A stretch of 24,695 bases of DNA from a virus. The notes beneath the pieces were generated by a model, which was given only the letters and a program-made list of their open reading frames with translations, was not told where the DNA came from and made no database searches. The position numbers and the translations under genes were made by a program. Each line of letters opens with the position of its first letter. The first letter of the stretch is position 1. Positions 15,942 through 22,779 of the stretch are shown piece after piece. The stretch covers positions 1 to 24,695 of the IMG/VR virus record IMGVR_UViG_3300025112_000179. One strand, given 5' to 3'.

Positions 15942-17813
15942 CTAAGCTTCCTCAGGAATAGGTGATGAAGCTTTCTCCTCGGCTGCATCTGCGGCTCGAT
16001 CTGCGGCTTCTCTATTCATTCTCATTTCTTCCAACATTTCCCCTGCTATAGTATCCTCACCTACTCCCAGGATACCTTCAATGCTCCTTCCAAGCATATT
16101 AGCTGTTTCATTTAAAAAATCAGGGGTTGTTTTAACTTCTAATTCCTTAGTTTTTTTATCAATACTTCCTGTATGGTCAGAAGTTTTTTTATTAAAACCC
16201 AAATTTTCTCTAGCCGCTTCGCCCATCTTTGAAACTTTAGCCAGAAGATCAGCCCTCTTTTTAGCTTTTTCTCTTTCTTCTTGGGCTTTCGTTTTTGCGT
16301 CCCTCGCAGCATCATCAACATCCCCTGCAACCGCAGAAGAGGGATCAGTAATAACTGCTGTACTTTCTTGTAAGCTTTTTCCCCATTCTGTAAGTGTATC
16401 TCCAATAAAAGGAAGTTTATTTCCTAGCATTTCTAATAAAGACCCAACAAAGTTTTTCCATTTAACAAATAACCACTTAATCCCATCAAATACCTTTCCC
16501 ATAATACCAGTTTTAACTAACAAAAATCCAAACGCCGCAACTATAGCTGTTGCTACAGCTGCTATAGCAACAAAAGGCCAAGTTACAGGTAACATCGCAG
16601 CTACTAAAGATATAAAAGAAAATATAACTTTAACTATAGTTATTGTTGCCATGTATGTCATTTTAGCAGCCCACAACCCTAACGCAATAAGTAAAGTAGT
16701 TTCAATATATCCACTTACTTTTACTATTAAATCCTTAAATTCTGTCCACTTTGTTTTTACTTTTTCTATAATACCCTCTAATCCACCCAACTCGATCCAT
16801 AGATCAAGAACTTTTATAACAAGCGTTTCAATGACTCCTTTTAAAAATCCTCCAAAAAGAATAGCAACATCTTTTATAGTAGGGTAAAGTGCTAAAAATG
16901 CTTCTTGTAATGGAAGAAGAACTTCACCTTTAATTACGGAAAGCTGGGCACCAAAATCAGCCACATCGTCGCTCTCTTTTTTTATTCTTTCTCCAAAAGC
17001 ATCACTAACCATCATCATATCCATAGAGGCTTGTCCAAAAGTTTCAGTTGTAACACCTACCATTCTAAAGAATTTATCAGAACCCCCTGCAAAATCTTTA
17101 GTGGTCTTCCCCGCTGTTTTAATAGCATCTTTTAGAATTATTGTAGCTTCTTCTGTACTTCTAGCAGCAGCTAACTGCTCTCTTACTCTTCCAATTCCTA
17201 ACATAGTCAGCTTTTCAAAACCCTGCTGGCTAGTATCCATAATTGCCTTCATAACATTTTCCATAGGCCCCTTCATGGAAGGTCCTAATTCAGCAGTTAA
17301 TGTGGCAACGGCTTGAGCAACTTCTGCCCCCATACCCGCTAACTTTTGAGCAGGAAAGCTCTTTTCTAAGGCACTCATAGCGTCAACTAAATGATCTGTA
17401 CTAACCGTCCACTCATCACCAACTTTTATAAAGGTTTTAGATAAATGATCAGTTGCGTCCCTAGAAAGACCTAATTGCGACTCCATTTTAGCAAAGATCA
17501 TCGCTGTGTTCTTAGATTGTGTTGCTGTTAATTTTTGTTGGTTAACTAATTTAGCAAGACCTTCAGTATTCCCCTGCATACCGACTTCTAAACCAGCAAT
17601 AGCAGCACCAAATCTTTGAGTTAGATCCCCTCTAAGGCCCTGCATAGTTGGGGTCAATGTTTGGTTAGTATGGTCTAGGGATAATCCCAAAGCTAAAGAA
17701 GCTTTGTCAGCATTTTCACCAAACTGTATGCTATTTCTAATAGTATCCCGTAGTGCATCTACAGCCATAATTACTCCACCAAGAGCCAGTTCTAATCCTG
17801 CGCCTACTACCAT
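15942..17813 (-). CDS. Tail tape measure protein
   Basis: A 623-aa protein with tape-measure features. The N-terminal 300 residues are long and mostly helical with low aromatic content. A hydrophobic segment at about 368-440 (for example TLLIALGLWAAKM and AIAAVATAIVAAFGFLL) could span membrane during DNA ejection. A highly charged helix of about 498-535 (AQEEREKAKKRADLLAK) and an Ala/Glu-rich C-terminus follow. T4 gp29 is 590 aa for a tail of about 100 nm, so this length predicts a similar tail, assuming the usual ruler relation. The ATG at 17813 is 2 nt after the upstream stop, with AAGGAA about 9 nt ahead. It precedes the adaptor, gp53-like and hub genes. An antisense frame of 268 codons at 16081-16887 is a shadow of this gene. 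Confidence 0.8.
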   Translation of the reverse strand: MVVGAGLELALGGVIMAVDALRDTIRNSIQFGENADKASLALGLSLDHTNQTLTPTMQGLRGDLTQRFGAAIAGLEVGMQGNTEGLAKLVNQQKLTATQSKNTAMIFAKMESQLGLSRDATDHLSKTFIKVGDEWTVSTDHLVDAMSALEKSFPAQKLAGMGAEVAQAVATLTAELGPSMKGPMENVMKAIMDTSQQGFEKLTMLGIGRVREQLAAARSTEEATIILKDAIKTAGKTTKDFAGGSDKFFRMVGVTTETFGQASMDMMMVSDAFGERIKKESDDVADFGAQLSVIKGEVLLPLQEAFLALYPTIKDVAILFGGFLKGVIETLVIKVLDLWIELGGLEGIIEKVKTKWTEFKDLIVKVSGYIETTLLIALGLWAAKMTYMATITIVKVIFSFISLVAAMLPVTWPFVAIAAVATAIVAAFGFLLVKTGIMGKVFDGIKWLFVKWKNFVGSLLEMLGNKLPFIGDTLTEWGKSLQESTAVITDPSSAVAGDVDDAARDAKTKAQEEREKAKKRADLLAKVSKMGEAARENLGFNKKTSDHTGSIDKKTKELEVKTTPDFLNETANMLGRSIEGILGVGEDTIAGEMLEEMRMNREAADRAADAAEEKASSPIPEEA

Positions 17814-18217: not shown

Positions 18218-18520
18218 ATGAATAATAATCTCGATATAGAAATAATTGATTTTCTTGATTTAATAAATGAAACACTTAGTTATTCCTTTGTAGAAAAATG
18301 GAGACATAAATATTCTGAGAAATTTGTAAAGCACTTCCAACTAAAAGTTTTGGATGCTATGAACAAGCAAAAGCCTATCAAGCTGGAGATGCTTTATAAT
18401 TATCTAACCAAGAAGTGTAAATACTCACCAGAACAAGTAAATAGCTTCTTTATATCTATAGATATAGATATATATCGACCCTTTATACATGGGACTTGGC
18501 CTAAGATTTCTTCTTCTTAG
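18218..18520 (+). CDS. Unknown 100-aa protein on the plus strand
   Basis: A small plus-strand gene of unknown function. The product begins MNNNLDIEIIDFLDLINE, is mostly helical and rich in Lys/Ile/Tyr, and ends HGTWPKISSS. No Shine-Dalgarno is obvious and the ATG is 12 nt after a TATAAATA, so a transcript from there would be nearly leaderless. Its 3' end overlaps the tail of the convergent nuclease gene by 20 nt. Near that end the DNA contains back-to-back AT palindromes that encode an Ile/Asp repeat (SIDIDIY). AT-rich codons match the neighbouring phage genes. Coding status is likely but not certain. Confidence 0.6.
   Translation: MNNNLDIEIIDFLDLINETLSYSFVEKWRHKYSEKFVKHFQLKVLDAMNKQKPIKLEMLYNYLTKKCKYSPEQVNSFFISIDIDIYRPFIHGTWPKISSS
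18451..18476. repeat. Two adjacent AT-rich perfect palindromes
   Basis: TATATCTATAGATATA (18451-18466) is a perfect 16-nt palindrome. It is followed at once by the 10-nt palindrome GATATATATC (18467-18476). Both fall within the 3' part of the plus-strand 100-aa gene, just before its convergent overlap with the nuclease gene. With no loop and only A-T-rich pairs, neither makes a convincing intrinsic terminator. Confidence 0.7.
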
Positions 18521-19274
18521 CCTTTAAATCTTCTATCTTTTTGCTTACCTCATGCATAGTGCAGAACTCAGGGCAAGCAGTCTTGTAAGCACACCAGTTA
18601 CAAAATTCATTTCTACTAGGGTTCATCTCGTCTTTTTTCCTTTTACGGATCTTCCAGACCTCATCAACTATCTTTCTTAGATGTGCATTGATTTGAGGGA
18701 CAGAGTACTGGACATGAACAAAGTTATTAGTTAGTGGATAATAGTGTGCAGCTACTATTTGGGAAAAAGGAATCTCATAAAGCTTACTGATAGCATAAAC
18801 ATACCCTTTTAGTTGAGTATCTTGATAAAGCTCTACTTTACTTTTTTCCCTTTTTGAGGTCTTGTAGTCAATTACTAAGTATCCCCCGTCTTTACCCTTT
18901 ATTACACGGTCAATAACGCCGTTAAGTGTAATATCATCTTTTACAGGAACTTCAAAGACTAACTCAGCAGCCACCGTTTCTTCAAGTTTTGAGTTGAACT
19001 GAAGAAAATTGTCAATACATTTTAAATCCTTACCCTCATACTTCTTTGATACCTTGTATGAACCCCTCACCCCTTCAGCGATCAACAGCATCTCATCTTG
19101 AGAATTTGCATTCACACCATCTTCAAGGATCTTGTGAATATAAGATCCAAAGTGTAGCGCCTCCGTGTTGGTTTCTTCAGGCTCAGGAAGCCGCTCAACA
19201 TAGCGGTAACGATATTTTAACTGACATTGTTTATAGGTTTGAAATTTAGATTCAGATATTGTTTTTATGTACAT
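18501..19274 (-). CDS. PD-(D/E)XK exonuclease, RecB/Cas4-like, with Fe-S cysteines
   Basis: A 257-aa nuclease of the RecB/Cas4 branch of the PD-(D/E)XK superfamily, acting on DNA ends or flaps. Motifs seen: H47 in FGSYIH, D122 in NGVIDRV, D136-x-K138 in YLVIDYKTSK, and Q154/Y158 in QLKGY. An apparent Fe-S set pairs C17 in the N-terminal YKQCQLKYRYRY with C225-x2-C228-x5-C234 near the C-terminus (CNWCAYKTAC), the arrangement of Cas4 and AddB-type nucleases. All catalytic residues appear intact. The ATG has GAGGTG about 6-7 nt upstream, so this start is well supported. It overlaps the divergent primase start inside ATGTACAT, and its tail overlaps the plus-strand 100-aa gene by 20 nt. A replication, recombination or host-DNA-degradation role is inferred. 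No CRISPR genes are present. Confidence 0.88.
   Translation of the reverse strand: MYIKTISESKFQTYKQCQLKYRYRYVERLPEPEETNTEALHFGSYIHKILEDGVNANSQDEMLLIAEGVRGSYKVSKKYEGKDLKCIDNFLQFNSKLEETVAAELVFEVPVKDDITLNGVIDRVIKGKDGGYLVIDYKTSKREKSKVELYQDTQLKGYVYAISKLYEIPFSQIVAAHYYPLTNNFVHVQYSVPQINAHLRKIVDEVWKIRKRKKDEMNPSRNEFCNWCAYKTACPEFCTMHEVSKKIEDLKAKKKKS
19267..19274. other. Shared start-codon palindrome of divergent genes
   Basis: ATGTACAT is self-complementary, so both strands read ATG TAC AT. The plus-strand primase starts at 19267 and the minus-strand nuclease at 19274. Each gene therefore begins Met-Tyr-Ile, and each must use control signals lying in the coding sequence of the other. Confidence 0.75.
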
Positions 19275-20259
19275 AATAGCACCTCAGTTTATTAGAGAGT
19301 ACCTCGTCCAAAACTTCAAGAATAATGGGAAACTCTCGGCCAATGGACGCGAGTTTATTATGGAGTCGTTATTCATTAATAATGATTGGAAGAAACACAT
19401 GAGCGTTAATATAGATAGTGGTCTATGGCAATGCTTTAAAACGGGACGATCAGGTAACTTCACCAGACTATACGCAGAGATAAAAGGTATTCCATATTTT
19501 AGGGCTCAAAGGGATCTCATCATCAAGAATTTTGAATTCCTTGGTGAGGAGGTTCCCGAATTAGATAGACCTGAAAATCAACTAGAGCTAGACACAAGCA
19601 AACTAGTTCCCATTAATTTAGAGTCTGGAAACTCGGATGACAAAAAAGAATTAGATGCTTGGAGCTTTTTGTTTGGTAGAGCCTTGTTTAGTCTTAACGA
19701 AGAAGAAGCTGCTCCCTTTTATCTTTGTACAGAAGGTAGGTTCGCAGATAGAATTATTATTCCCTTTAAATCTGAAGAAGTGGTTTATTACTTTCAAGCT
19801 CGTACCCTTCACGATGCTCGGCCCAAGTACTTAAACCCCTCCACGGAAATAGCTCCAAAACCCTCTGATATCCTATACCCTTATGACGAGGAGCGGGATC
19901 ACCTCGTTATTTGTGAGGGTCCATTAGACGCTCGCTCACTCCAACTCCAGGGAATAAATGCAACTGCTACCATAGGAAGTTCTGTTAGTCCTAGACAGGC
20001 CGAGATCTTGTCTACTTTCAAAGGCAAAATTATTCTAGGATACGACAATGATGAAGCAGGACAAAGAGGTATTAAGAAATTTGATAAGATTAGGAAAGAG
20101 AGGATGATGGACAAATTTGAAATATGTCCTCCCCCCGCAAGGTTCAAAGATTGGAATGAAGCTCATGTAGCTAATGAAAACTTATTCCAATGGATTATGG
20201 AAAAAACTATTACTTATGATTTTGAATATCAGATTAGTAAACAACTAAATTTTGATTAA
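19267..20259 (+). CDS. DNA primase, Toprim type (T4 gp61/DnaG-like), lacking zinc ligands
   Basis: A 330-aa primase that would make RNA primers for lagging-strand synthesis with a replicative helicase encoded elsewhere. The core shows RIIIPFKSEEVVYYFQAR then KYLNP (about 163-191). The Toprim motifs are VICEGPLDA (E217, D221) and GYDNDEAGQRG (D260, D262), with a KDWNEAH motif at 294-300. Its size matches T4 gp61 (342 aa), and no fused helicase is present. The N-terminal segment WQCFKTGRSGNF aligns with the primase zinc ribbon but keeps one cysteine where C-x2-C is normal. The first ligand pair (around 34-40, SLFINND) is absent. No Shine-Dalgarno precedes the ATG at 19267; the next in-frame Met (residue 32) would remove conserved sequence. 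The end overlaps the convergent 188-aa gene by 26 nt. Confidence 0.87.
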   Translation: MYIIAPQFIREYLVQNFKNNGKLSANGREFIMESLFINNDWKKHMSVNIDSGLWQCFKTGRSGNFTRLYAEIKGIPYFRAQRDLIIKNFEFLGEEVPELDRPENQLELDTSKLVPINLESGNSDDKKELDAWSFLFGRALFSLNEEEAAPFYLCTEGRFADRIIIPFKSEEVVYYFQARTLHDARPKYLNPSTEIAPKPSDILYPYDEERDHLVICEGPLDARSLQLQGINATATIGSSVSPRQAEILSTFKGKIILGYDNDEAGQRGIKKFDKIRKERMMDKFEICPPPARFKDWNEAHVANENLFQWIMEKTITYDFEYQISKQLNFD

Positions 20260-20865: not shown

Positions 20866-21882
20866 TCAAGTAATCGTAAAATAGAACGGGGGAGTTACGA
20901 AGTTTTGAGTTAAATAAGAGTATTTAGCCGTTATAAAATAGGTCCCTGCACTAGCTGCTTTGGACTCTGTATCAAAATTATAAAGAATAGTGTTATCAGA
21001 TGTTATAGTAGCATTGGGGGGGCTCGTATCATAATCAACTACGGAAGACCAAGCAGGTTGATTTACAGAATCTTGATTAACTCTTTGTATTTGAATATTA
21101 GCCCCACTTATTTGATAATCTTTTAAGATATTCTTAGTTTCTTCGGGAAGAGTTTTATTTTGAACAGTAATATCAGTAGTAATCTTCATATCAACTTTTT
21201 CACCAACCCGAAGCTTTTTGTTTACCAATCTATTACGAGTAGTAAGCAACAGCGGCTCCGTGATGGTAGTAAAATTATCATTATACAGACTAAAACTATT
21301 AATAAAGAGTTGGTACTCTGAAGTTTTATAAAGTTTTACAGTCCAAACATCAATGTAGTCCTGGACGGAAGAGGCGCTATTAGCCACAGCACCTCCTGCA
21401 TTATACGCATAATGCATATTATAACCACCCGATAAATCGACTGCCCCATCTAAAACAGCAACATAATCCCCTACTCCAACTCTAAAAATTCCACTAGCTT
21501 GGCTTTCAGCCTTATAATCAGGCCACCAAGCGGTGTCCAGTGGCTTATTAAGACGCTCACTGGTAACTCGTGAAGTACCGTCGCCGTCAGGATCAATAGC
21601 ACCATCATGAGGATCCTCTGGCCCCTCAGCAGGATATGGATTCCCAGAAATTCCAAAGTTCATTAAAACTACTGAAGACGATTCGCTTTTAATTAGCCCA
21701 TTATCACCATCAATAATAGAAGCAGGAGATGCATTTGCTAACTTCGTAAAGATAGTGCAAGCACTAACATCATAAGGATCAATAAACTGTCCATTATTAA
21801 TGAACAATGTTCGAATAGCTACTTTTCCACCCACACTAGGGCGATTAAATCTATCAGTTAGGGTTACTCCGTTTAATTGCAT
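20866..21882 (-). CDS. Unknown beta-rich protein, probable virion component
   Basis: A 338-aa acidic, beta-rich protein I cannot name. It begins MQLNGVTLTDRFNRPSVGG. It contains a DPDGDG loop near residue 97 that could bind calcium but is not a full EF-hand. It closes with an Ig-like strand pattern (SAGTYFITAKYSYL to PPFYFTIT). The start overlaps the end of the -1 frame of the chaperone pair by 29 nt, with a purine-rich GAGAGAG just upstream, so it is probably co-expressed. A 65-nt gap follows, holding an AT-only dyad around 20840-20858 and the Shine-Dalgarno of the next gene. A tail or neck structural role is inferred from the neighbours. Confidence 0.7.
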   Translation of the reverse strand: MQLNGVTLTDRFNRPSVGGKVAIRTLFINNGQFIDPYDVSACTIFTKLANASPASIIDGDNGLIKSESSSVVLMNFGISGNPYPAEGPEDPHDGAIDPDGDGTSRVTSERLNKPLDTAWWPDYKAESQASGIFRVGVGDYVAVLDGAVDLSGGYNMHYAYNAGGAVANSASSVQDYIDVWTVKLYKTSEYQLFINSFSLYNDNFTTITEPLLLTTRNRLVNKKLRVGEKVDMKITTDITVQNKTLPEETKNILKDYQISGANIQIQRVNQDSVNQPAWSSVVDYDTSPPNATITSDNTILYNFDTESKAASAGTYFITAKYSYLTQNFVTPPFYFTIT

Positions 21883-22779
21883 CTTGTTCTCTCTCTAAGT
21901 CTTCTCTTAACAATTTAAGAAAAATTGTCCTTTCAGTACGAGACATTGTTTTTACATCAGAATAACTGAAGTTTGCTCGCTTTACAAGTATATAGGCTTC
22001 TAGAAGAAGAGAATCAACATCAATTACTTCATCTAGTTCACATCGAAAAAATTTGCATCTATTGGTAAGTCTACGACTGATACCCCTCCGCAGTCCCCAC
22101 ACGCAAATTTAATCTTAGTATCAACACCATAATCGGACTTTATAGCATTTAAAAGGGTTCTAACATCCTTAAGGGGTAATTTATCAATAACGGCAGCAAT
22201 AATGGATTTATCTGTATGCCCTTCAATTTCTACCACAAATCTCCAAAGCTGATCTAAAGCAGTCGTAGTATCTGCAAAAACTTTTTCATCTCTTACTCGG
22301 GGTTGTCTAACTTTGATATCTTTTGCTAATTGAGGAAGAGAGATAGTTATAGGATCTTTAAAATCATCAGGAACAGGGTTCACATTAAGTTCAGAAAGCT
22401 TAACTGTGGTGGGGTTTTCAGCCCTACATTCTTGACAAATTAAGAGAGTATTATAATCATCCCCATATGAGATTTCTCTTAATTTCATGATAAGATAAAG
22501 CTTGTCCATCGGAAGAAGCTCAAAAATTTTTACATTTGTTACACATCTTTGAAGAACGAGATTTACTGGATCTTCTTCTTTCTTAGCACTAACAATATTC
22601 TTTTCATCTTCAAAGGTCATGGGCCTAATGGTCACAGGCATCTCAGGATCCTCTAATTCATAAACCTTACACTCTGAGGGAAGGTCAACCTCTACCGCAT
22701 TATCGGTAGGAAGCTCTTTTAAAAGGTCATTGATAATTTCTTGCTTTGCTGGATCAACAACGGGGCGGTTTTCTAACAT
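21854..22779 (-). CDS. Predicted -1 frameshift product, tape-measure chaperone long form (gpGT-like)
   Basis: Reading the 248-codon gene to codon 244, slipping back one base, then following the -1 frame gives a 308-aa protein ending at 21854. The added 64 residues (FRCELDEVIDVDSLLLEAYI onward to EQDAIKRSNPN) are helical and charged. The extension frame has no ATG before MSRTERT deep inside it, only a GTG at 22102, and no Shine-Dalgarno at a useful place. It is open across the whole overlap and is therefore best explained as a frameshifted C-terminus. A two-form chaperone pair ahead of the tape measure gene is common in long-tailed phages (lambda G/GT, P2 E/E'). Function and efficiency are inferred. 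Confidence 0.65.
22033..22779 (-). CDS. T4_baseplate-family protein (gp26/gp51-like), probable tail assembly chaperone
   Basis: A 248-aa protein resembling the T4_baseplate family (T4 gp26/gp51, hub-assembly proteins). The signature region is at about 70-118: EEDPVNLVLQRCV, then LPMDKLYLIMKLREISYG, then LLICQECRA. Two C-x2-C pairs, C115/C118 and C227/C230 (FACGDCGG), could form a zinc ribbon. The 3' end carries the slippery site for the long form. The ATG at 22779 has AGGAG 8 nt upstream. It diverges from the UvsW-type helicase across a 41-nt gap. In T4 the uvsW-uvsY cluster likewise lies next to genes 25, 26 and 51, so the neighbourhood is partly conserved. It probably assists assembly of the hub or tape measure. 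Confidence 0.75.
   Translation of the reverse strand: MLENRPVVDPAKQEIINDLLKELPTDNAVEVDLPSECKVYELEDPEMPVTIRPMTFEDEKNIVSAKKEEDPVNLVLQRCVTNVKIFELLPMDKLYLIMKLREISYGDDYNTLLICQECRAENPTTVKLSELNVNPVPDDFKDPITISLPQLAKDIKVRQPRVRDEKVFADTTTALDQLWRFVVEIEGHTDKSIIAAVIDKLPLKDVRTLLNAIKSDYGVDTKIKFACGDCGGVSVVDLPIDANFFDVN
22045..22056 (-). other. -1 ribosomal frameshift slippery site
   Basis: On the minus strand the frame reads GCA AAT TTT TTC (codons 242-245 of the T4_baseplate-family gene). A_AAT_TTT (22054-22048) is a canonical X_XXY_YYZ heptamer, and the next one along, T_TTT_TTC, also fits. Four codons later the zero frame stops at TAG. The -1 frame runs on for 64 codons. No clear stem-loop or nearby Shine-Dalgarno-like stimulator was seen. 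Confidence 0.75.

Follow-up and report, generated by a model that had tools for sequence, protein, structure and literature searches.

The gene on the minus strand at 22033-22779 of the window (the whole stretch of DNA analysed here, a fragment of 24,695 nucleotides, or 24.7 kb, from an uncultured virus) very probably encodes a tail assembly chaperone pair, TAC-N and TAC-NC, of a T4-like contractile-tailed phage, the longer protein arising from a -1 slip on U_UUU_UUC. The fragment also contains gp25-, gp6- and gp53-like wedge genes. Most ribosomes would end at the TAG at 22033 to give a 248-aa TAC-N, whilst a minority, carrying two tRNA-Phe on U_UUU_UUC, would move back by one base, perhaps with the aid of a hairpin that follows, and would translate 63 more codons to give a 308-aa TAC-NC. 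We infer the slippage, its minority rate and the roles of the two forms. By analogy with the lambda G/GT system, TAC-N may coat the tape measure protein, and the helical tail (TAC-C) of the rare long form may recruit parts of the tail tube or the hub. The central features of this proposal are as follows.

22033-22779, minus strand: short form TAC-N, 248 aa, T4_baseplate or gp26-gp51 family
21854-22045, minus strand: -1 frame tail TAC-C, 63 codons and a stop, with a 29-base overlap with the next gene
22045-22051, minus strand: T_TTT_TTC, the conserved slippery heptamer and most likely -1 shift site, with an invariant T run
22048-22054, minus strand: A_AAT_TTT, the heptamer named first, non-conserved, at codons 242-244, four before the stop

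The gene ends with GCA AAT TTT TTC GAT GTG AAC TAG, and the 64 further codons and the 308-aa read-through product that an earlier note on this DNA had ascribed to the -1 frame can be read directly from the letters. A scan of viral contigs returned 41 relatives, at 43-90% identity, and in every one of them the -1 frame is open past the 0-frame stop and encodes the same tail. As it is always open over this range of identity, the frame represents more than chance. Over the 53 codons that follow the 0-frame stop, none of the 33 distinct sequences has a stop in the -1 frame, whereas the remaining two frames average 6.9 and 4.7 stops. The pN/pS ratio is 0.37 in the -1 frame, with 0.78 and 1.53 in the others, and judged by these comparisons the tail is under purifying selection. 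An error of sequencing or assembly, or decay of the gene, would explain the frame break, although the break itself is all that speaks for such an origin; it is already refuted, since the same frame relation recurs in cultured phages as well as in 41 further contigs, and its probability is virtually nil.

The -1 frame could also be thought of as a separate small protein, translated from its own start or by reinitiation, much like the small 'gp51' proteins annotated in cyanophages. Indeed, one of the predicted viral models nearest to the tail is a 53-aa 'Gp51' from Prochlorococcus phage P-HM1 (E3SMJ9), and there is a GTG at 22100-22102. This GTG is, however, the sole nominal -1 frame start in the window, it has no obvious Shine-Dalgarno and it is not conserved, in agreement with the earlier statement that the frame lacks a usable start. 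No ATG, GTG or TTG is conserved for this frame among the relatives, many of which have none at all before the conserved core, and in T4 gp51 the tail is fused to the whole family domain. A separate protein is thus extremely improbable, and the small separate cyanophage 'gp51' entries, such as E3SMJ9, probably each correspond to the latter half of a single frameshifted gene, which suggests that split annotations of the chaperone gene of this kind should be joined.

If the tail is reached by a -1 slip, the position of the slip can be located by comparison. The first proposal was A_AAT_TTT, described as a canonical site; the heptamer is indeed present in frame in the window, but it is not the conserved site, as it is missing from 11 of 36 distinct genes. 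The codons AAT TTT TTC occur in 25 of the 36, and their replacements are TCT TTT TTC (n=2), AGT TTT TTC (n=2) and GAT TTT TTT (n=7). T_TTT_TTC/T, which sits three bases downstream and overlaps it, is kept as T_TTT_TTY in 41 of 41 relatives, where the run of six or seven T is invariant. Of the two things to be sought at homologous loci, therefore, the -1 frame proved to be conserved and A_AAT_TTT did not, and no relative was found in which the slippery heptamer is lost and the second frame has gained a conserved start.

A shift on A_AAU_UUU instead of U_UUU_UUC would yield the same product, since the fusion peptide NFF/RCE is identical for the two overlapping heptamers. The former is present in the window and in most distinct relatives, and it fits the X_XXY_YYZ pattern, but contigs L005, L006, L008 and L017 and the whole of L034-L042 lack it and still require a shift. 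A -1 frame TGA stands immediately before TTTTTT in L034-L039, so that the slip in these relatives must take place on the T run. Moreover, T_TTT_TTY lets both tRNA-Phe re-pair fully, and it is the only one that the members beyond the window's group have in common. A shift on A_AAU_UUU is accordingly considered quite unlikely.

The association of T_TTT_TTY with the -1 tail was followed across PF12322 by sorting the genes according to the location of the tail and not according to the heptamer. It is found in 40 of 40 distinct family genes with a -1 tail and in none of 16 controls, which comprise six genes with a +1 tail and ten gp26 genes that need no shift. The -1 members from outside the window's group are S-SM1, Cr30, Kaldavass, XacN1, RAS14 and LR756511. 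Two TTT codons are retained in SP-15 and LIS04 despite the missing T_TTT_TTY. A GGAGG that lies some 30 nt before the site was weighed as a stimulatory Shine-Dalgarno and rejected, both for its distance and because it encodes a conserved CGG motif.

Slippage on U_UUU_UUC may be assisted by an RNA structure, for which the following candidate is present.

22000-22036, minus strand: likely stimulatory hairpin, 8 nt after the slippery site, with the 0-frame TAG in its 5' arm

Folding of 50-nt segments from 29 relatives gives a mean z of -2.1. One example is in L040 (L040:3711-3770), where 15 perfect pairs with an energy of -20.2 kcal/mol and a z of -7.3 begin 8 nt past the slippery run. This is far stronger than the hairpin of the window itself, which is weak or ordinary (-9.6 kcal/mol, z -0.83), and L030 and L034 barely fold at this position. 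The number of paired cells, the number of cells changed on both sides and the covariation score all lie above 500 of 500 shuffles, although a slide of one column nearly equals the true register on the covariation measures. RNAalifold gave no consensus structure over the relatives, and Rfam gave no match around the shift site. The structure prediction called for in the earlier note thus supports a hairpin in most relatives and gives little for the window, and a hairpin 8 nt downstream is likely but unproven in most relatives.

The same T run might act at the level of transcription, with RNA polymerase slipping on the six or seven T to produce mRNAs of altered length that encode the long form with no need for a ribosomal slip. 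The invariance of the run is compatible with this. However, the exact codon phase of T_TTT_TTY is kept by selection, a hairpin at ribosomal spacing is a better fit to ribosomal slippage, and six T is short for efficient transcriptional slippage. Polymerase slippage is therefore regarded as highly improbable, and ribosomal slippage on U_UUU_UUC remains the preferred explanation.

The tail that such a slip would add is charged and is predicted to form three helices over its 63 residues (pLDDT 87), which is in keeping with the charged helix expected at the outset. The model has no informative match among solved structures. By sequence profile the tail matches the C-terminus of gp51 from the Straboviridae (hhalign probability 95, E 1.9e-8), and against full-length gp51 it scores 44.6, compared with 21.2 for the best of 100 column-shuffled controls. 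Profile comparison of the tail with gp26 gives no match; aligned to the long form, gp26 reaches only as far as the FF motif at the shift point. With the fused form, the score of the PHROG baseplate hub profile rises by 15 bits and the match extends to the last column of the profile. The gp26 of T4, like the short form of the window, ends at the FF motif, and the C-terminus of gp51 matches the -1 tail. As the tail matches gp51 only and gp26 stops at the FF motif, the short form appears to have its counterpart in gp26 and the long form in gp51. Vladimirov, Gautam and Davidson are said to have named 26 and 51 as the TAC genes of T4 in 2022. Unlike the window, T4 has two separate and divergent genes, and there is no shift site in its gp26. 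Both have long been listed as factors in hub assembly whose function is unclear (PMC3004832), and the present comparison adds sequence-level support for their being the short and long chaperone forms.

The short form itself scores 63.5 bits against PF12322 (T4_baseplate), well above the curated cut-off of 24.5, and it also belongs to phrog_150 (PHROG 150), annotated as baseplate hub. Together with the -1 frame that is open in all of the relatives, this supports the earlier view of a T4_baseplate-family gene with a -1 shift. The protein contains two pairs of cysteines.

22426-22437, minus strand: first CxxC pair of a putative zinc ribbon, C115 and C118
22090-22101, minus strand: second CxxC pair of a putative zinc ribbon, C227 and C230

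All four cysteines, which the earlier note had picked out, are invariant in 33 sequences, and a zinc ribbon is a putative assignment. The short form and the -1 tail were modelled as separate parts, and AlphaFold2 produced a good model of the short form, with a pLDDT of 84.7. The viral models closest to it are baseplate hub or T4-like hub assembly proteins, with SP-15 first. A Foldseek search of the PDB with the short-form model gave no significant match, and the family profile found only a chance match among PDB sequences. With a second-look structural aligner, three solved entries alone reach a Z of at least 2, all of them over residues 142-216 of the short form: YqbN (3klu; Z 4.8, which is modest, rmsd 3.2, 72 aligned), the HK97 tail assembly chaperone (2ob9; Z 4.7, likewise modest, rmsd 3.1, 69 aligned) and, third, a PICI-like element protein (5ir0; Z 3.9). 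Both 3klu and 2ob9 are described as tail assembly chaperones (PMC9603447). The match to the HK97 chaperone fold is weak and a modest Z can reflect a common arrangement, so that these predicted structures provide support rather than proof for a TAC-like fold.

Two-form chaperones of this type have precedents. In lambda G/GT, the tape measure protein carries a coat of the short form, and tube or hub components are recruited by the tail of the long form (PMC5009743). In both lambda gpG/gpGT and P2 E/E', the chaperone acquires a C-terminal domain through a minority -1 shift close to the 3' end of its gene, as is proposed here by analogy, whereas the family of the window has two invariant CxxC pairs. 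Parallels also lie in the T4-like phages. Passages of PMC10885494 and PMC12846349 cite Vladimirov, Gautam and Davidson 2022 (doi 10.1016/j.virol.2021.11.003) for T4-like TAC genes; those of PMC12846349 mention poly-T shift signals in the TAC-N genes of T4-like phages, and those of PMC10885494 mention separate short and long TAC genes in some of them. Chaperones of this frameshifted kind, with a short and a long form as proposed for the window, have thus been known from T4-like phages since 2022, and the gene of the window adds to a known kind. The known recoding mechanism is hereby extended to an uncultured phage group, with its shift site fixed; a close cultured relative of this group was not found. 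A similar arrangement is present in the cyanophage S-SM1, where the 'gp26' gene (L066:1471-2372) has TCT TTT TTC GCA TAG, with a tail resembling that of gp51 encoded in the -1 frame. It is annotated as a baseplate hub subunit only and is followed by a large ORF, probably the tape measure gene.

The direction of the shift is not the same throughout the family. The members with -1 slippage on T_TTT_TTY are the window, the cyanophage S-SM1, Cr30 and several jumbo phages. In SP-15, LIS04, GXN1, LR756508 and the Streptomyces phages LuckySocke and BRock the tail is in the +1 frame, and with these six phages a single chaperone family includes both directions of shift. The +1 tails are placed as follows.

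L044 from 2998, L045 from 2935, L047 from 2980 and L049 from 3001: +1 tails past the 0-frame stop
L078 near 2160; L079 near 2148 (reverse strand): +1 tails

SP-15, LIS04 and GXN1 have in common a CC-CGA-TTY just before the stop, and in the Streptomyces phages the gene ends with CTC-TGA or CTC-TAA. A scan of viral contigs for relatives of SP-15 returned SP-15 itself only. It is tentatively suggested, as a possibility somewhat short of probable, that the same kind of helical tail has been attached in three ways, namely by -1 slippage, by a +1 shift and, in T4, through a separate long gene. The +1 tails of the relatives in Thornevirus, GXN1, LR756508 and Streptomyces phages may be less known. Should neither these lineages nor the change of direction have been reported, the family would constitute a natural record of the evolution of recoding and of its replacement by gene duplication.

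The surroundings of the gene differ from the usual order of tail genes.

20866-21882, minus strand: next same-strand gene, 338 aa, no family match, its start overlapping the -1 tail by 29 bases
15942-17813, minus strand: probable tape measure gene, 623 aa, judged by length, composition and position among baseplate genes

The earlier note had compared the gene with two-form chaperones that stand before a tape measure gene. The two forms are supported but such a position is not, as the gene for the 338-aa protein directly follows the chaperone gene, and does so in 41 of 41 relatives. The probable tape measure gene is found about 4 kb downstream of the chaperone gene, past a primase-like gene on the opposite strand, an arrangement unlike that of lambda and P2. 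Its product has no family match and no match in cultured phages, and we infer that this 623-aa protein is the client of the chaperone. In the relatives SP-15 and LIS04, unlike in the window, the chaperone gene does have its position by the tape measure gene. One copy of PF12322 is present in each of ten contigs, all of which are incomplete; the close relatives of the window are all metagenomic fragments, and a second paralogue may lie elsewhere in the genome. At 18501-20259, within the block of tail genes, the primase-like gene (plus strand) is accompanied by a Cas4/RecB-like exonuclease gene (minus strand), and both are kept in most relatives between the chaperone gene and the probable tape measure gene.
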